A DNA stretch of 64,000 nt from Chiridota heheva (taxonomy: Eukaryota > Echinodermata > Holothuroidea > Apodida > Chiridotidae), in the NCBI GenBank assembly GCA_020152595.1, contig JAIGNY010002993.1, positions 277,001 through 341,000 of the forward strand, given 5' to 3'. Each line of letters begins with the position of its first letter. Positions within the stretch are counted from its first letter, which is position 1. A program made the translations under genes and the position numbers. Of the stretch, positions 4,500-37,900 are shown in pieces. The notes below the pieces were generated by a model that saw only the letters and a list, made by a program, of their open reading frames with translations, was not told the origin of the DNA and made no database searches.

Positions 4500-6240
4500 T
4501 TGAAAGATGTGTAGTGTGTACATGCTTTTTGGTTCCAATGTGAAAGCATCAGGAACCTATGCAGTGATGATGGCGTGTGTATGTATGTGTGTTTGTGACG
4601 GCCAGCTCGTAAACGTGATATCTTAGGAAGGATACACTGGATTAAAATGTCATATGTGGTACACAAATAGCTTATGGTGCGTAGATGTGCCCTATTGTTT
4701 TTGATGCTGATGTCATGCATATGAGTAAATGGGGCTTAATGTAAACATCTTGAAATGCACATATTTTGATAATTTGTTTCATATTTGTTATAATTATAAT
4801 GTTAGGTAGTGTGTATATGTTCCTGATGTAAACACATTGAATTTCATTATTATGCATAGTGGTGCGGGGCTTAAAATTATTTTGCTGAAAGAGCTTGTAA
4901 ACATTGTATTTCAAGAATGGTAAACTGGATTCATGTATTATTTGGTACACAGATAGCCCATGGTCTGTAGATGTACCCTAACGTTTTGGGTGCTGATATC
5001 ATGCATGGTAATTAGTAGGCGGGGCTTAATTTAAAAATCTTGAAATGCTCTTATTTTGACATCACATGTCTTATTTTGTTTCATACTTGGTATAATAATG
5101 ATCTCAGCTAGTGTGAATGTGTTCATTGTATAAAAACGTTCACTTTCATTAGTATGCATAGTGGGTGGGGCTTAATATGATTTTGTAAACAAAAAGCACA
5201 AGTAAACACGATATCTCAAAAGTATGAACTGGATTCAGGTCATGTGTGGTAAACAGATAGCTCATGGTCTGTAGATCTGCCTTAATGTTTGTGGTGGTGA
5301 TTTCATGCATATTAATAAGTGGGCGGGATTTAAAGTGAAATTTTTGAAAAAGTGATATAGAGCACATGTATGTCCGCTTTGTGTCATATTGAGCATGATA
5401 ATATATTTGGTTATCGTGTATGTGCTTATATTATCAATAGATGTCATTAATATGCATGGTTTCTTAATGTGAAAGTGCTTAATGATGTAAACACCATGCT
5501 GTATCTCATGAACGGTATACCAGATTTATGCCACATGTCGTACACAGAAGGGTCATGGTTTGTACATATCTTCTAGTGTTGTGGTAGTGATATCATGAAT
5601 ATTAATGAGTAGGCGGGGCTTACTGACAAATTATTGAAATAGGATAAATGAGCAACCATTTTTGCATCATACTTGCTATGATAATGTTTTTAATTATTGT
5701 ACAAATGCTAATGTTGTCAACATTTTTATTGATTTGCATGGTGGGTGTGGCTTATGAATAAATATGGAACAAATATTTCATGATATGCAATGACATGACA
5801 GTTAACACAAATTTTGCAAATCAATCAGCTTATGAAAAAAAGAGCATCGGAACCACAAAACCTTTGGTTCTGGTTTATGAGAACATCTTTGCTTTGAAAA
5901 ATGTAGAAAAAGTTCCTTGTTAGTTTTGATGCGATAGCATAAGGAACCTATGTTGTCATGCTGATGTGTGTATGTATGTGTGTAAGTGTGGGTGTATGTA
6001 TGTATGTACGTGTGTCTGTGACAGAAGCTTGTAAACACTATACCTCAAGAACCATGTGGTAGATTTATGTCATACTTGGTATATGGATGTGTTGTGGTCT
6101 GTAGATGATCCCTATAGTTTTTGGTGCTGATGTCATGAATATTAATTAGTGGATGGGACTAAATGTAAGATTATGTTAACAAGCTTGTAAACACGATATC
6201 TCAAGAACTGTTCTCATCCAAAGTTAGCATCGGGACCACA
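4500..6240. repeat. Diverged tandem copies of a ~290-bp repeat
   Basis: The core GGTCTGTAGATGTACCCT or a variant recurs near 4672, 4957, 5262, 5549 and 6091, that is at spacings of about 285-305 bases (one interval is double). Each unit also carries a GTAAACACGATATCTCAAG-like start and a GCGGGGCTTAAT-like end. Two blocks begin with a GGTTCC...GCATCAGGAACC palindrome followed by a TATG/TGTG microsatellite. The same family recurs at 17,980-18,890 in opposite orientation and as a fragment near 48,620. It lies within the last intron of gene A. Confidence 0.85.
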
Positions 6241-6328
6241 TGGGATTTCTCCCTCTGGTTCTTTTGTCCAATTTGTATTTTCCATGTTCCTCAAGATGTT
6301 GATCAAATCTCATTGGTTTCTCTTCTAG

Positions 6329-6468
6329 CTTCACCAGCAGTGTTTGAAATTCCTCCTCAAAGCCCTGGGATTGAATCAGAACCAGCAACAGCAGCAGAAG
6401 AAGGACGCAGTGCTAGTCTGGCCGCATCCGTCTTGCCCTCCTCACCTAGGAGAAACACAACAGTGTAG
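6329..6468 (+). CDS. Gene A, last coding exon with PDZ-ligand-like C-terminus
   Basis: The acceptor is TTCTCTTCTAG. The exon supplies two bases to finish the codon left open at 3074, then 45 codons and the stop TAG at 6466-6468. The peptide is rich in Ser, Pro, Ala and Glu and ends SSPRRNTTV. The final T-T-V fits the class I PDZ-ligand consensus (S/T-x-V). With the PPxY motif of the previous exon this suggests the cytoplasmic tail of a membrane or scaffold protein that is sorted or ubiquitinated through WW and PDZ partners; that role is inference. The sequence shows only the motifs, and no family can be named. Confidence 0.75.
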
Positions 6469-6520
6469 AAAAATCCCAACATAAGCAGAGAATATTTTCA
6501 TGTGTAGATTTCTTGTATTG

Positions 6521-6956
6521 AATACTATAGACTTTTCCATATCTGAATCTGCAATTTCCGGAAAACCTAAATCAAATAGTCTCACATGGCCGAAATTCCT
6601 GTCCTTTATGGACCAATGGTATACTGGGGAATTTTTTTGTTCTATTCAAATACTGGGGGAATCTTTTCGTCCAATCAAATACTGGGGAAATCTTTTCGTC
6701 CAATTAAATAATGGGGGAATCTTGGCCGTCTGCACAGTTCACTCACCATATGGGACCAAGCGTATCAAAAAACAATGCTTTCAAATAGGTATCATACATG
6801 TGTTATACACGAAGGTAAAACGCATGCATCGTTTGTTACAAATTTTTTCTCCAAAACTGCACTTGATTGGTTGGGCAACAAAAGGACAAATTCCCCCATC
6901 AGTTGATTGGTTGAAATACAGAGGAATTAAATTGGTTTGAAAAGGTCTATAGTATT
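6521..6956. mobile_element. Miniature inverted-repeat element in the gene A 3' UTR
   Basis: It starts AATACTATAGACTTTTCCA and ends with the near-perfect inverse (TTGAAAAGGTCTATAGTATT). Inside are four imperfect copies of a ~35-bp unit with AATCTTTTCGTCCAAT (about 6615-6730). One frame happens to stay open for 146 codons, but it resembles no protein and crosses the internal repeats. Because it lies between the stop codon and the first poly(A) signal it would be transcribed as part of the 3' UTR. Confidence 0.65.
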
Positions 6957-7046
6957 ATCGTAATAAGAGGATTGTTACGTGTGTACAGAACAACTCTATT
7001 AACATTAGTGAGAAAACTCTAGATAAAAGTTTTTTTTCCTTGTGGA

Positions 7047-7052
7047 AATAAA
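7047..7052 (+). terminator. Candidate poly(A) signal of gene A
   Basis: The first clear AATAAA downstream of the gene A stop codon, 578 bases after it and just beyond the miniature element. The true cleavage site cannot be told from sequence alone. Confidence 0.4.
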
Positions 7053-7059
7053 AATATAT

Positions 7060-8010
7060 AGAATTAAATTTCTCATCCATCTGATATTATTTTCTGCAAA
7101 ATGATATTCAGTAAAGAATTTTATGTGTAGATTTTGAAATCTGAGCACATTTTTTCTTTGTAGATGAATCGGAAAATAGGATGAGCTTTTTTATTTGGAA
7201 GAAATACGGAAGATATGCAATATAATATAATATATAGAGGAAGAAACTTCCTCCCGATGAGTAAAAGCATCTATCTATTCACTCTAGTTCACAGGTGCAT
7301 CTGTTTTGCCTTTCAAAGCTTTTTATACATCTTATGTCTGCATATGTGTAAGTTGTAAGGACACATCCTCCAATTCTTCAGAAATTGGCTTGCACAAAGA
7401 TGTCATGTTTTTGTCTCATGTTGGTGTAGGATACACTAAATGTTTCATGAACAAAACTCAATGAGAATTTGAAAAATTATGAATTGAAATATAAGTGAAG
7501 GATTAACAACACTGCTTGTTCTAGTGCTGTATTTTTACCCAAATTATGAGCATCATTTCTGTGGTTGTCAAGCGCCTACCAGTTTCTGTATCAAACTATG
7601 ACAAATTTCAGTATCAGTGTTGTTTGAAAGAGTAGTGGTCTGTTTGAAAATTTTACTTGTTTATGGGCTGACAAATTAAAGATATTTCTTTACATGCTTT
7701 TGTTAAATCTGGTATTGTGTTATGATTCATCCTTTAGGAAACAAAACTATAGGATATTTCATTGAGTTAAAAATTTGCAATCGAAGAATAGCAGGAGAGC
7801 ACAATCTGGTTTATTTGATTTTAATCCTAGCCCAACTGCAAGAGATGCAAACCATAGAAAAGATATTTTCATAAGAGCTTTGATAGGTTTGTGAGTGGCA
7901 TGGGACTGGTTTAATGAACGACATGTATTTATTTTGTTCATTTGAGCAATCAGGTGATGTCTCATGAGCCATTATTGACAGTTCACTCTTGTCTATGTGG
8001 CAGTACCTTT
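7060..8010. other. Intergenic, nothing recognised
   Basis: AT-rich sequence downstream of gene A. No open frame of interest and no repeat with clear borders. Confidence 0.5.
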
Positions 8011-19900: not shown

Positions 19901-22900
19901 TAAAACTTCTGATAAATTTACCCTGCTAAGCGTAGAGGGGATATTTACAAGAGTTATACTTACCTTCCATGCTATAAATATGCAATCTGGTCTATGACCT
20001 GATTCAAACGCACTTCTAACCGACCTTAAAAACGTAGTTACCAACCAGCCCTAACCTCCAGAATACCTCTAACATCCCTCACTTAACATTCCACCGAGGC
20101 CTGAATGAGATGGGAGCCGGGCCGGGATGCATGGAAGGTAAGTATAGCTCTCCGGGTAAATTTACTTTAAGTTATATCTTACCTTCCATGCTATCAATAT
20201 GAAATCAGATTGCAACCAAGGAACAGAAGGAAGAGAGTTCAGGTCAAAGCCCAATTTTCAAAAGGCTGGTCCTAATACTTTTACTAGTTTTATCCTACTA
20301 AAAGGATTAGATTCCTTAAGGACAAAAAAACCTCTGAATAGGAATAATTCAACCATAGTAAATAACTCCTAGTTGTATTCAAACCAAACAGGTCACTACC
20401 CGTTATCAGTAAGTGAGGCAATCGCCGCATAAACCCGAGTTAGATCAACTCAGAAAGCATGCCAAATGAGAGAGCTATTAAACACAATATAAATATCATA
20501 GTAGGGTCTAAAATGATATTATAAACATCATAGTAGTGTCTAAAATAACGCAACAAAACTCAGCGAGTTCGTCCATGAGACAGAACCTGTGAAGCGTGTG
20601 TTAGCCAATGCAAAATAAGGAATTCCCGAACAGAGGAAAAATTCGCTAGCGTGCAACCTTGTTAAAGCAAACATTAGCGGGGAAACAGGAACATTGTAAA
20701 GTAGGTCAAGCAAATACAGGGGAATAAATGCGACATGCCTTTTCCAAAACAGCTGCACGAATTATCCTCTAGCCTGAGTGCATACCCTGGCTGTTCCATG
20801 AAGAGCGCCGAATATTTTAAGAGATTGCTTTGGTCGATCCCCCGTCCGATGAGATTTTCGTAACGATAAGAAGAATGCATTTGTAACGCCGAGCATCTGC
20901 TGTGTACTTATGAAGCAATTTTAAAGACGCCAGACATGAAGCAATTCTAAAGATGCCAGACAGACAGGGCATTATACCCTGTTTTCTGGTAGGTCTGAAG
21001 GCGCGGAAAGCGGTGGTACGAGTATTGGCTCCGAGTAAAAGATGAAAATGACTTTTTTAAGGAGGAAACGCACAAAAGCACCTCTGCGCTTAGTAGAGTT
21101 CGCGGAAAGCAGACAACTCTTTTAAGCATCAACTCCACAAGTGGGCACGTGAGGGGTGGCTCGAGCAGAGCTTTCACCAGAGTGCCTAAGACAACTTGCA
21201 TGACCCACAGGGATGCATGAATCTGGGAAGGTCTTTATAAGAAGATTGTTTTTTGGCTAATTCACTCAGTGGTCATGAGTCTATGACCTTCAACCCAATT
21301 GGAAAGCCTCAGTGAATGCTGCTACAGCTATCCTAAAGCCCTTGACTACCCCTCCAAAAGGTGGAGGGGGTCATCAACTCCTAAGAAAACCTTGCTACGC
21401 CAAGGATCAGCGGACAGAGGCCACACAGTCAAATGAAGTGCTCAGGGACTGTGGTGCAGTCAGTTTGATGGAGTCCGGGAATGAGACAAAAGTCATCTCT
21501 AACCAGAAGCTCGTACGGGAAGCCCGAAAAAGTTTGAGCAGCTGAGGGAACCACAGTTGGCCAGGCCAAATGGGTGCTACCGGTCGTACATCGCTCTGCC
21601 AAGTACCCTCGGTTCCAACACGAATGGTGGAAAAGGCGTAACCCACGTAGTGAGTCCTTGTGATTGTAAATGCCTCAACTCTGAACACCTGCGGGTCAGA
21701 AGTTGGGACACAGAGAATCGGTAGCTTGTAATCGTTCACAGACACGGACAGACCTACAGGAGGACGAATGTTGTCCAGATCGCTCTGGTCACCTGTGGTA
21801 AGCACGCCCATCCTGTGGGAGTTCCACTGAGGCGAGATGACAGATTCGTGATCACGTTCTCTTAGGACAAAAGCTTCCTCTTGCACCAAGATAAGAGGAA
21901 GGATTCCAGAAATTCCTGGACTCTGTTCCTCCCTGTCTAAAAGAGAGAGAGACCACAACAGTGGTGCAAAGTTGGTGCGTATCTGAACTGTTTTGCTCAG
22001 CACTAGCGGTTTCAGCATATGCCAAGTACCTGCCCAAGTTCCTGAGATTAGGGACCACATTAAATGTGCTCCCCACCCTGTCCAAGACGCATCCGTCACC
22101 TCTGACGGTGAAGGTCTGATGGGTGGAAACTTCGCTCCTCATGACAGGTGGGAGAGGCTGCACCACCACTAAACATGAATGGCCACCGTCTGAAGGTGTG
22201 GAGTGGGAATACTGTGTCCTAGAAGCGACCGCAGAAGGTCTAGCAGAAGGGGACATTGGTCCCTCGTGTGAAACTTGCACATGGGGATTACGTCCACCCG
22301 ACTGGCTAAGCGGTCTAAGAGCATCAGCCAGTCTCTCGTCAGAGACGTTCGCTGTGAGAGGAAATCTGCTATCGCCTTCAACAGCTAGCACTCTCTCCTC
22401 TATCGGCTGTAAATGGCCTTGTGTAAAGTCCAGGACGGTAGAGGTCTCCGTGAGACCATCTTCAGCCCTAGGGGTAGATTTCAAAGACGTCCTCCCTGCG
22501 ACTTGCAAAGTCTGAGAGTGTTGAAAGTATACATCGGTCGCTGCTGGCCGGTGGTGCGGGGAAAGCAGCAGCCTCTCCTCCATGGTGTGTGTGGCCCAAG
22601 ACAGAAGCCTGGGTATTAAGAGTCCGTGAACGTAAGAAACATCTTCCCTCTGATTAACTCCATTTTTCTTCCTATGTCCACGCCTGTGCTCAGATGGGAA
22701 GTGGGGGAAGGATGGAAACTGTCCTCTCAGTTAGTGCTGCTTCCTGCTTCTTTCTCGATCCCTACTCTGGGACTTGCTCCGCTGTGGAGAGGACCGGGAG
22801 GATAAGTAAGCGAAATGCTGAATGTCAGCGATACGGAGCCTTGTGGACCCGTAAAGCTTGGATACGGAGCCGTATGGATCTGTAAAGCTTGGATACGGAG

Positions 22901-31900: not shown

Positions 31901-34900
31901 TCCATAGCAAATAGGTGTCAAAGTTCAAACTAACAATCTATGCTGACATTTTCACATAGTTTTAATGTCAGAAAATAATCATATCATATGAACACTGTCA
32001 CCCACAAACCTATCACTAACTCACATCCAAGGTTGAAAACATGACAGATGTGTAAAAGCTAAACTATCAATGTCTGTGAAAACAATATTTTGAGTCACAG
32101 AACTCATTGTTAAGATGATAATATTTACAACAGATTTAATGTTTAACATAAGAATGCATATTTCATATTTTTGCTAAATTTGTTACAATTGAAAACAACA
32201 GAACAATACCCCCCCCCCTCCTCTTTCCTCTGCCCCATACACACTTCTTTCTGTATTAATATATATTTTGTTTGGTGATTTTTTGTATCTCAGTGTGATT
32301 TTGACTTTTGATCCCCCTATTTTCAGAAGGTGAGTTGACTTTGCACTCATTACACAAATTTGATTATGTGACTTTGTTACCTCTCACTTTCAGTAAGCAA
32401 ATCTCATCCATGCACCAAAGGCTACATTAAAAGCACAAAACAATTGATAGCATTACAAACAGATTTCAGTCATATCCTTAATTCCCATGTCATCAATTCT
32501 GCATTTAGTAACAATTAGGTGGTACTCAGAAACAAACTAAAAAAACTTCCTTTCCAAAATGTATTTATTTGATTTGTTTTACTAAAATTTTCTAGGTGTG
32601 ATAACATAATAATTTGTGAAAGGAGAGCAAATCATGCACATACATACCTGAGGTTCTCCCCAGATACTCATGACCTTGCCCAGGTCATGAACCAGTCCTA
32701 TCAGATGAAACCAATCCTGGTCCGGGTGCTTTTGGCGGATCCTCTCAGCTGTCTGATATGCATGGTAAATGTTTGGAACACTTATCTGTATCAAAAACAG
32801 GGAATAAATTGGCAAAGAAAAATAACCAATTAATATCTATTGCAAAGTAATCTCTGTTAAATTTACTGATAGATCATTACCAAACTGCACAGATTTCGTA
32901 AAAAAATTATGTATCATTTGTCATAGCTAGAAAAGCAATTACCACTCTTTCACATACCATTCTAAATTTGCCAAGAATAGTTTTGTTACATCACTACAGC
33001 ATAACAAAATCTGAATTACTGATAAATTTGAGTAGGTGCCGTTTCAAGTGTAGCATCATTAGCACTGGAATTCAGTAAATGTGCTCTAGATCAAACACAG
33101 TGGTGGTGTCTTCTTACTGAATAAGCCTTAAATTAAGGAATCGGGTTTTACTGCGCAACTGTAGCAACATAAATCCTTCATTCTGTCCACATTCAAAAGG
33201 TTACTTCATCTCCTAACAAGGCTTGAAACTATCTTTTGTTTAAACATGATCAATTCTTAGAAACTGCTTCTTTAAAATATCTAAGGAATCTTTCGAGTAA
33301 GAAAGATACATTCTAGCTGCTTATTCAGTGAGAAGGGTCCTGACTGATGTTAAAGATTTATAAAGAAAATATGTCGCTTTAAACAATGTAATAAGCCATT
33401 TCTTTTCACTGTGGAAGAAATCAAGGTTGACATGAATCATATTAAGATTAAATCAAACATTGCAAAATAAGAAAAATACTTCCATTCCATCACCATGTTT
33501 TTTATCTACAAAGAAACATATATAGTTTTGTTTGTTAAGTTTATACACACAGTACACATCAAATATGTGATATATTGTCAATAAACCTGTTTAACATGCT
33601 TGTTCCTATTTACCTTCTACCATCTACTGTTCTTAACTTGTTTCCGGTAGTTATGAGGGATAACTTTATTAGCTTTGACGCTTCAAGTGGCGGTAGATCA
33701 GATGAGAGGGGAAACTTTCTTTGTGCAACAGAGGGCTGATGGTGCACTGCTCCTCCATAACCGATGACCTGATTTATTTGTGTATAAAGTTCATCTATGG
33801 ATACTTTCATCTAGTCGAGGCTTGTTCCTCACCCTTCATCTTTAACAACCTTCATAAACTTACCTGTCATTCCTTTATCAAGTGTTATAATACCTGTGAA
33901 ACTGAGGCAATGAGTACAGAAAAAAGATAGAAAACAGTGAAGTGAGTTGTTCCCGGTTGTATCAGCGTAAAGCTGATACATGTCCTATTTACATCTAGTC
34001 ATGCATCATCATATTAAGGTTTCATCAAATCTGTAAAGCGTCACTTGCTATTCCTCTTTTAAGTAAACTAGTAGGATACAAAATATTTACCCCAAAGGAT
34101 TAATGCTGTTTATTGAAATATTTATAAATTTTCAATTATAAATTTAGGAGATGGAATGCACACCATCCTATGATACTCCATATAGTCAATAAATGAACTT
34201 AACTTAATTTATCAATTCGATAATTTGATTAATCTTTTAAAAAATAATACCCTAAAGGAACTATGAAATAACATCATTCTATGTGACAAATTTTAAGTTT
34301 CAATATGCTACCCTTGCTATTCAAATATCAGATATTTACCTATAACTTTCCTTTACATATTTTGCATTGGTTTCTTTAAACAACAAAGCAAAAAGAGAAA
34401 AAAAAACAAAGCTTTTGATAGATTTTCGGAAAGAAATCATCCTAATTATATTTACTCGTATATCGTCGCAGGAAAGTAAAGTTGTCCTATGTCCATTTCT
34501 TGGCAAAATGGACTTTTTCATTGGTAAATAATCTATAACCAAGTAGGCTACTTTCTATACCTCTGACTTAACATATATCATCTAGGAAAAAAAATACTGT
34601 GGAAAAAAAAAATGTGCTATGTCCCAGAAATATATTTGAGGAAAGATAAACTGTCCTATGTCCTGGACATTGCATTATTTTTAATTCCATTTAGACATAG
34701 GACTGTTTTTATTTCCATAAAAACAAAGAAAACTGAAAATATTTGGACATAGCACTTTTACTGAATGGGCAAAAACAAGGTATACTTATAAGGAGGGTTA
34801 AATGGAATACTTTTAGTTTAAAAACGTGTAATTTCGTTTAATCAATTATTTTATAATACCCAGATCCCTGCTTATGTGTTTAATACTATGGCAACTAGTA

Positions 34901-37900
34901 TGAAAAACTTAGTATGTTTCCTCATTAGTATAGTAAGTTAATTGTGCGAACTCCTGATTAATGTAACTAAATTTACTGTTAAATTTACAAAGAGATTTAA
35001 AGGGAAGATCAGCATTAATTGGCATTAGTATTGATCTTCTGTTTAAATCTCCCTTAAATTGTAACACTAAGTATAAGTTACATTAATCAGGAGTTCAGCA
35101 AAATTAACTTACTAGACTACTCTGGCTGGAAAAACCGAGAGAAGCTTCTTTTTCTTCACTAAACATTGTTTGAAGCCACATTTCCCTGGCAAGTATAAAT
35201 AATACAATAATCAGTTTGTTGATTTGTTTTTAAAATCAATTTTGAATGTTTTGTTTTTCTCAGTACAACAGCAACTTTATTTTATCTTGGGTGTCCGCAT
35301 CAGGAATTTCATCACTTTCTCGCAAGCAGTTTTGAAATGAATATTCGTCTTTACAATATAATAGATGAGCCCATTTTACTTGCTGCTCTCTGAAATCTTT
35401 CAGAACTGAATTGTACTTTTGTGAAAGAATCCAAACACTCTGGTTTGTATGCCGACCACTAAAAGTCTATTCACTAATCATACATTTTTGACTCCCCCAA
35501 GCAGCTGGGCCCCCATGTGATCGAAATTTCAACTCTTTTGTTGCGGAACAATCATCAATGAAAAACAAAGTTTCATCTCCCATAAAACGTTTATAGAAAG
35601 CTTTTAATGTTTCATGTAAAGAAACATTTTCCATATTACAAAGGTACACTTCATTATCCCCTCAAATCCCATATTCTGTTTTGATATGCGCGATTCCACT
35701 TATTTGTAGCGCAAATTATACCAATATGTTCACCGCGGGGTAATTATTATTGTAATAAGATTCGCATTTATACCATACTATTATACAATACTAATATTAG
35801 CGATGTACACATTTGCGTTTATTCAAAAACACCATTATAACTATCTGCCAATATTTTCATACTTTAAAATTGTTAATTTTGCATAAGAAATTGTTTAGCT
35901 ATTTTTTATACCCAAATATCAACTTATCGAAAGTAAATCTTGAAATAATATTGTATGTAGATACCATTTGCATATAAAATATATTTTTACACTCAAACAA
36001 TGAATATTCATTTGCATTTCGCACATAGCAATTGTTTGTTTAATATCTTGATTCGATGTTGTGATATAGCAGAGTCTAAAGTTTGAGGGTGTAATTAAGT
36101 ATTTAAAAAACTGGTTACTTGTAGGTTACTTGTAGGTTACTTGCAGGATACTTGTAGGTTACTTAAGTAACTAAGTATCAAATGGCACAATTTGTAACTC
36201 CTCTCTTACAAATGATCTTATTGGGCAACCATTTCCTGGACAATCTAATTAATACAGTACATGTTGATTTCCCTTAATAGTATATGTTCTGATGTTGTAA
36301 GTTTTGATAGACTAAATAGGATCTGTGGCCCTTTTCTCATATCATTTTCAGCTTTCTCCGGAGCATATAAATATCTTACTAGGGCTGTGGCTGGGATAAT
36401 TTCTTCTTCATAACTGACTTCACGCCCTTTCTGAGGGGGTAGTAATGGACTTTACTCAATACTAATGCCAATGCGCTGATCTTCCCTTTAAATCTCTCTG
36501 TAAATTTAACACTAAATTTAGTTACAGTAATCAGGAGTTCAGCACAATTAACTTACTATACTACTTCATTTCATTCACAATCTAAACCTAAATTATTGTT
36601 CTAACCCCTTTTCCAAAATCAAGTGGTCCAATCATCAAGTGAAGCTATTTCTATATTCATGTGCATAGATTTATAATAGGATCAATTGGGTTTATAAAAA
36701 AGATTATGGACATACAACTCTTACTGATTTCCCTCAAAAAAAATATACGTAAAATATCTGCTTTTCAAAATTGTCTTAAGTCCATTTATGACCCAAACAT
36801 AATCCAAAGATGGGCACAATCTTATTGTTAACAATATTACCTATAAATAGTTACATAAGCTCTATTAAAATGCATCTTATATCCATCTTAGCCTATTTTA
36901 ACCAAAGGTGCTAAATTTATGCAGAATTAAGAACTTAAAATACGATTATCTCAGAGTGGCATTTTTGGACATAGGACAACGGTACTTTCCTGCGACGATA
37001 TAAACATACGCTTTCAAGCCATCAGAAATTAGTAGCAGTCTGTGTGGTGGGAAGTACTACTACTCAGTTTCAAGTGGAATCCTAAGAAATATTATTGACA
37101 TTAAAAATCCTAGAATAGACGTACAATTTGGACTTGTGAGGATGTGATGTCATAATTAGTTTGAATTCAGTCGTTTATACACAAATGAGACTTATTTTTG
37201 GATGCTTTCTGCCTTCTGCATGTTGTTTCTTTTGAAATCCTCTTTCATATAAGAAGAAATTGTTTGACCACTGAACTAATCCTTGGTGTTTACTTGTCTA
37301 TGTGAGAAACCACTTAAAATTGTGTTTTAAATTGATACTGTAGGTACATAAATATTTGTTATAAAATCTAATTTGAGTATTTGCATTCAGTACCAGTGCA
37401 TTCAATCCTGGTAATGCACTACCTTGATTATTAGGTTTATTCCATTTTTACAATTGAATTTTACAAGTAAATTTCTTAATAGAGTTGGTTTTTATGCATT
37501 TTAAATAATGTAACATGGAAATGTTATAACTAGCGAATGGTCTTCCCAAAGTAAGGCCATTCTACTCAAGTCCTTTGCCCACTGCATTAAATGCATATAT
37601 AGGCACTGTGCCTCAACATTAATCTTTAAGTAAAACAGATCACTTTGAAGGGAGGTTAGAAAGAAAGAAGTGAGAAAACAAATAGATAATGAATGACACA
37701 TGCAGAGTGTAATGAACTTTCACCATGGTCAAAGGAGCTCTTGGACAAAAAGTGAGGGAGTGTATTCTCCGAAGTCATGGGAAATTTGAAATAACGCAAG
37801 ACTAATTTTTGACACCTTTGTTGTTGAAAATGAGTGAAGTATTCAATAGAAATAATTACGGTTGCTTCGAATGTTCATATCAACAGGTATCAATATAATC

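Follow-up and report, generated by a model that had tools for sequence, protein, structure and literature searches.

Why should a small inverted-repeat element in an intron carry a fragment of a packaging-type ATPase? The question is raised by a 64,000-nucleotide stretch of the Chiridota heheva genome (the window, on contig C2929 of the 1.1-Gb assembly that we searched), in which two pairs of inverted repeats lie one within the other around a broken, minus-strand ATPase gene. The original prediction, made from the window alone, took the outer repeats, the inner repeats and the ATPase to be one unclassified element. We conclude that very probably the stretch is instead a small terminal inverted repeat (TIR) transposon that later received a Maverick/Polinton-type insertion, both of them in an intron of MIOX, and that deletion has left only a remnant of the insertion. 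The seemingly unclassifiable element thereby becomes two ordinary mobile elements whose order is given, the virus-like one having come after the small transposon. Such nesting, with a Maverick/Polinton-type deletion derivative as the younger partner, is itself ordinary; its use is for annotation: when a small inverted-repeat element contains part of a packaging-type ATPase gene, that part can turn out to be a nested Maverick remnant.

Two sets of repeats and an empty site

Minus-strand matches resembling exons of MIOX lie at ~38.1 kb (LNNLVDESDPD) and ~32.7 kb (WFHLIGLVHDLGK), with others near 29.2 and 19.5 kb; they were recognised by motif, and we take them to be those of MIOX. Because the matches at ~38.1 and ~32.7 kb bracket both elements, we place them within an intron of this gene, in agreement with the original prediction. 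The two sets of repeats that it described are also real. The outer pair (34459-34495 and 36966-37002) is 37 nt long and 95% complementary, whereas 2000 mononucleotide shuffles of that same sequence gave 54% at most, and the inner pair (34926-35034 and 36456-36563) is about 110 nt long.

The relationship between the two pairs is revealed by the target site of the inner one. The inner element (34927-36565, 1.64 kb) is surrounded by a 5-bp duplication, TCATT, whose left copy occupies 34922-34926 and whose right copy occupies 36566-36570; the junctions read CCTCATT / AGTATAG on the left and CTATACTACT / TCATTTCATTC on the right. For comparison, 19 other loci of the outer element were fetched (L030-L048), two of which, L032 and L040, have flanks in common and probably represent a single locus that has been duplicated. 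In the alignment of the window flanks with five of these copies, TCATT is present once and the empty site reads TTTCCTCATTTCATCC, as in L037; the exceptions are L033, in which one base is changed (TCAAT), and L034, which is gapped beside the site. The alignment passes the insertion site in 18 of the 19 loci (in L030, it breaks 7 bases short), 13 of the 19 give a single alignment through the joined outer halves, and a match to the inner element was found in none of them.

These observations bear directly on the idea of a single inverted-repeat element with an FtsK/HerA-like ATPase of its own. The concentric arrangement of the outer and inner repeats in the window is what such an element would show, but the inner element comes with ends and a 5-bp duplication of its own, the site that it occupies is empty in other copies of the outer element, and it is missing from all 19 of the other outer loci examined. 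We consider a single element extremely improbable and reject it because the empty sites speak against it; with respect to the outer repeats, the ATPase gene is a passenger. The accompanying suggestion, that a larger virus-like element has been reduced by internal deletion, survives for the inner element but not for the outer one. Capture of the gene by the outer element was also considered and rejected, as the ATPase gene brings its own ends and its own target duplication.

We propose that the locus was assembled in three steps. A non-autonomous TIR transposon of ~0.89 kb would have entered the MIOX intron, presumably moved by a transposase encoded elsewhere, because no long gene fits inside it. 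A member of a Maverick/Polinton-type family then entered this transposon and produced the TCATT duplication, as the comparison with empty copies shows; by analogy with known Mavericks, its own integrase would have carried out the insertion and its own polymerase the copying. Finally, internal deletions would have stripped away nearly all of its genes, as judged from the pieces that remain.

The inner element and its relatives

A genome search with the whole inner element gave 754 first-look candidates, of which 40 were scored and 20 places fetched. Beyond the window itself, the scored candidates matched only 34923-35732 and the inner inverted repeats. In all 20 fetched copies, the match to the window runs from the end of the element into the ATPase, but the sample is biased towards this, as the query itself contained that region. 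The TIR that reaches into the ATPase gene (34927-35732, plus strand) is common to most fetched relatives up to 35730/35732 (in L023, to ~35669), and the outer arm of the opposite TIR (36456-36565, minus strand), located from the inverted repeat and the relatives, ends with ACTACT at 36560-36565. The longest copy is colinear with others for ~8.8 kb, and one (L013) stops at 2.6 kb, where its contig ends.

Two of the fetched copies, C202 and C772, could be read from end to end with no joining of sequence, and the other 18 fetched relatives were read at the left end. The C202 copy is ~13.2 kb long, its inverted ends are alike for ~550 bp at 84%, and it is flanked by GCTCT/GCTCT; the C772 copy is ~9.8 kb long, including a satellite array, with an inverted end of 434 bp at 80% and AAACA/AAACA flanks. 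Among the left ends of the 20 relatives, 11 are exactly AGTAGT, three have one base changed (L010, L023, and L025), four differ more (L011, L013, L017, and L026) and two are without the tip (L009 and L018). Passages of one study give (AGT)2//(ACT)2 or (AG)3//(CT)3 as the end motifs of vertebrate Mavericks, for which it uses 6-bp duplications (PMC8097293), and a passage of another puts the duplications made by mavirus and by Maverick/Polinton elements at 5-6 bp (PMC8547959). In our family, a 5-bp duplication is found in all three copies read at both ends (TCATT in the window, GCTCT in C202, and AAACA in C772); it fits without mismatch and leaves the AGT-type ends whole, except for an AGT unit lost from the window copy. 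A 6-bp duplication was tried and rejected: in the window, CCTCAT/CTTCAT is a mismatch, and TGCTCT in C202 and AAACAA in C772 need unequal ends.

The coding pieces in the fetched inner copies (ATPase, rve integrase, PolB-like and endonuclease VII-like) are broken; for three of these copies the open reading frames (ORFs) were listed. The end motif, a duplication of 5-6 bp, long TIRs, an rve integrase and P-loop motifs were all found, and the family resembles Maverick/Polinton elements (polintoviruses) in its AGTAGT...ACTACT-type ends, 5-bp duplication and long inverted ends, in its retroviral-type integrase piece, P-loop ATPase and PolB-like motifs, and in the size of the 9.8- and 13.2-kb copies. 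We conclude that the inner element arose by deletion from an element of Maverick/Polinton type and is a fresh member of a known group. It is unlike that group in having palindromic TIR tips of ~200 bp and an ATPase gene that extends into the TIR, and the window copy is unlike it in having shrunk to 1.64 kb.

The ATPase relic (35150-35700, minus strand) was delimited from ORF pieces and relatives. The minus-strand open pieces at 35467-35661 and 35260-35466 contain FFIDD and WILSQKYNS, the Walker B motif and Gln-bearing strand of the original prediction, with an in-frame stop between them and more stops and a frame change downstream. Walker B (FFIDD/FIIDD) and the Gln strand are present in the window and in relatives. 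Seven of the 20 relatives have a Walker A motif (ALICGQTGCGKT or a variant of it), at 838-916 bp from the end, and the window copy has no P-loop because this motif sits beyond the 806 bp that it has kept. With its stops, its frame change and no Walker A, the relic would be unable to make a working ATPase. The prediction is supported in that the relic comes from a P-loop ATPase gene that belonged to a larger, virus-like element, and membership of the A32/FtsK-HerA family of packaging ATPases is weakly supported by profile matches.

Several results weigh against the assignment to Mavericks and to packaging ATPases, and most concern the proteins. A Pfam search of the window ATPase pieces alone, the check that had been proposed for these fragments, returned no match. 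The Pox_A32 profile matched two of nine family members (best E 0.0032), and its match to L009 (E 0.015) is below the Pfam curated cut-off; a profile built from the ATPase pieces found nothing relevant among solved structures in the PDB (pelota, E 1.6), and a scan of IMG/VR with one ATPase piece gave no confirmed relative. The integrase depends on a Pfam rve match (L016:4873-5184:-, E 7.3e-5) that scores 23.4 bits, where the curated cut-off is 32.6. PolB depends on YTDTDS and NSLFG, seen by eye in L016, which we take to be PolB motifs; when separate pieces were searched against Pfam, PHROGs, the PDB and phages (the last by tblastn with a PolB piece), no polymerase was matched, and one PolB piece had no confirmed relative in IMG/VR. 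Three ORFs (L009:4109-5014:-, L009:3616-4032:-, and L016:7332-7802:+) gave no match to a eukaryotic-virus capsid in Pfam. Finally, the window copy has kept only one of two AGT units at its left end.

Among the remaining coding pieces, L009 7835-8326 gave no Pfam rve match, PHROGs returned weak HNH and endonuclease VII matches and a weak terminase match (E 0.068), and the endonuclease VII-like piece of the family matches Pfam at E 0.0037, below the cut-off.

Origin of the remnant and its palindromic tips

What survives in the window copy is a TIR that includes the Walker-B half of the ATPase, then a polymerase-side stretch, the integrase 3' end and one half of the opposite TIR. The stretch at 35733-36115 (plus strand) has matches in C1755 and C2223, next to sequence located on the PolB side in C202 and C772; we have called it polymerase-side from its apparent position beside the PolB-like pieces in L016 and L049. 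The 3' end of the integrase gene region (36113-36453, minus strand, with an open piece at 36245-36451) matches many copies; the rve match reported above corresponds to an upstream part of the gene in the C202 relative, and the window keeps the 3' region only. C1755 has both of these sequences, 8.76 kb apart and with the order and strand seen in the window. Since order and strand are the same, the reversed window copy can be explained by deletions alone: it would be colinear with its relatives, passing from the half TIR to the integrase 3' end, across a jump of ~8.8 kb to the polymerase-side stretch, and on to the other TIR with its ATPase. In this arrangement, 34927-35732 would be the polymerase-side TIR.

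An inversion would give a different account, in which 34927-35732 would represent the left, ATPase-side end, with an inverted integrase piece next to it. It draws strength from the full-length match of 34927-35732 to the ATPase-side end of the relatives, when the opposite TIR matches for only ~550 bp in C202 and 434 bp in C772. However, the opposite TIR of C202 holds ATPase sequence too, and the arrangement in C1755 means that the reversed window copy needs deletions only. We therefore regard inversion as unlikely, though deserving some weight, and favour deletion. One further observation counts against our reading: at the two loci with the polymerase-side stretch, there is no TIR within ~970 bp on its other side, and the junction at 35732/35733 may therefore itself be a deletion. 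A second copy of this junction was not seen among the scored candidates of the whole-element query and of a query with 35733-36455 (170 first-look candidates, 40 scored), neither of which was a junction-specific search.

As both end regions and the target duplication have been kept, the remnant could have moved after the deletion, and one can envisage a mobile miniature derivative of a Maverick, akin to a miniature inverted-repeat transposable element, that was amplified in its present form. We consider this very unlikely, as no second copy so built was obtained from either query, a count that is incomplete, with 40 of 754 and 40 of 170 candidates scored.

Tandem repeats are found at several places in the family. 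Where the integrase piece begins, the window has four overlapping 22-nt repeats with 11-nt spacing (GGTTACTTGTA units, 36113-36167); the unit forms longer arrays in other copies, and the deletion junction lies at its edge. The C772 copy has a long array of a 67-bp repeat between the polymerase side and the right TIR (L015:5700-9800), and L025 (reverse complement, 4600-7400) has an array whose 52-bp unit matches a short part of the inner element.

The tip of the inner TIR is palindromic (34927-35121, plus strand, with one of two AGT units kept), as identified by a hairpin search and from the copies; in the left arm of the window the hairpin spans 34926-35119, ~195 nt. The left tip is palindromic in 17 of the 20 copies (186-252 aligned bases, 72-87% arm identity) and partially so in L009, L018, and L024. 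The inner arm of the palindrome ends in an ACTACT of its own in 13 of the 20 left ends, and both ends are palindromic in C772 and C202. It is conceivable, if rather doubtful, that the family has fold-back ends, in which each terminus consists of head-to-head TIR tips that work in replication or integration. Were this so, the palindrome could, for example, form a hairpin when single strands are displaced, or it could provide an alternative end from which a ~200-bp unit is released. A limited literature search found no work, by title, on palindromic or hairpin ends of Polintons, and we suggest that this uncommon trait is one for specialists to pursue.

The outer element

Minus the insertion, the outer element is ~890 bp long, with the TIR CGTCGCAGGAAAGTAA and ATAT flanks. 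Its left TIR (34464-34495, plus strand) and right TIR (36966-36997, minus strand) were defined from the inverted-repeat pair and by comparison of copies, and the direct repeats beside them, ATAT at 34460-34463 and 36998-37001, were read from the sequence. The insertion divides the element into a left half (34464-34926), defined by the alignments that continue across the insertion site, and a right half (36571-36997), defined by genome matches and alignments; both are on the plus strand. Each half matches many places in the genome: 34461-34920 gave 305 and 36567-37002 gave 303 first-look candidates, with 40 scored for each.

A word search (at most one mismatch) located GTCCTATGTCC at 34484, 34614, and 34653 on the plus strand and at 34693, 34745, and 36967 on the minus strand, the first five forming a subterminal group at 34484-34755. 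The word that had been noted near both ends is thus present at six places there; one similar word (TTCCTATGTCC) occurs elsewhere in the window, at 22669.

The 4-mers that flank the two TIRs, compared by eye, are the same in 11 of 20 copies (the window, L030-L032, L034, L035, L037, L038, L040, L044, and L047) and are unequal or unplaceable in six (L033, L041, L042, L043, L046, and L048). At least one end was not located in L036, L039, and L045; L036 is truncated by about its last quarter and L039 by nearly all of its right half. In L034 and L044 the flanks are ATGT/ATGT and are therefore not part of an inverted repeat. This points to a target duplication of 4 bp, ATRT, or of 2 bp, TA/TG; the shorter duplication, with a TIR beginning TCGTCGC, fits equally well.

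No gene was found in the ~890-bp element. Complete fetched copies are ~0.9 kb long, and those enlarged by an additional insertion reach 1.3 kb. In size, TIRs, short AT-rich flanking direct repeats and its ~300 candidates, the element resembles miniature (non-autonomous TIR) transposons, for which no parent transposase was found among the fetched copies of ~0.9-1.3 kb. One passage on Ginger2 describes 4-bp target duplications, a preference for AT-rich targets and TIRs of 50-180 bp (PMC2836005). The outer element may share the 4-bp duplication and the AT-rich targets, but the TGTNR termini of Ginger2 are absent from it; whichever boundary is chosen, the termini are CGTCGC or TCGTCGC. The two loci that share flanks, L032 and L040, lie ~92 kb apart on contig C2860; their flanks are near-identical, and each carries an extra insertion of ~0.4 kb.

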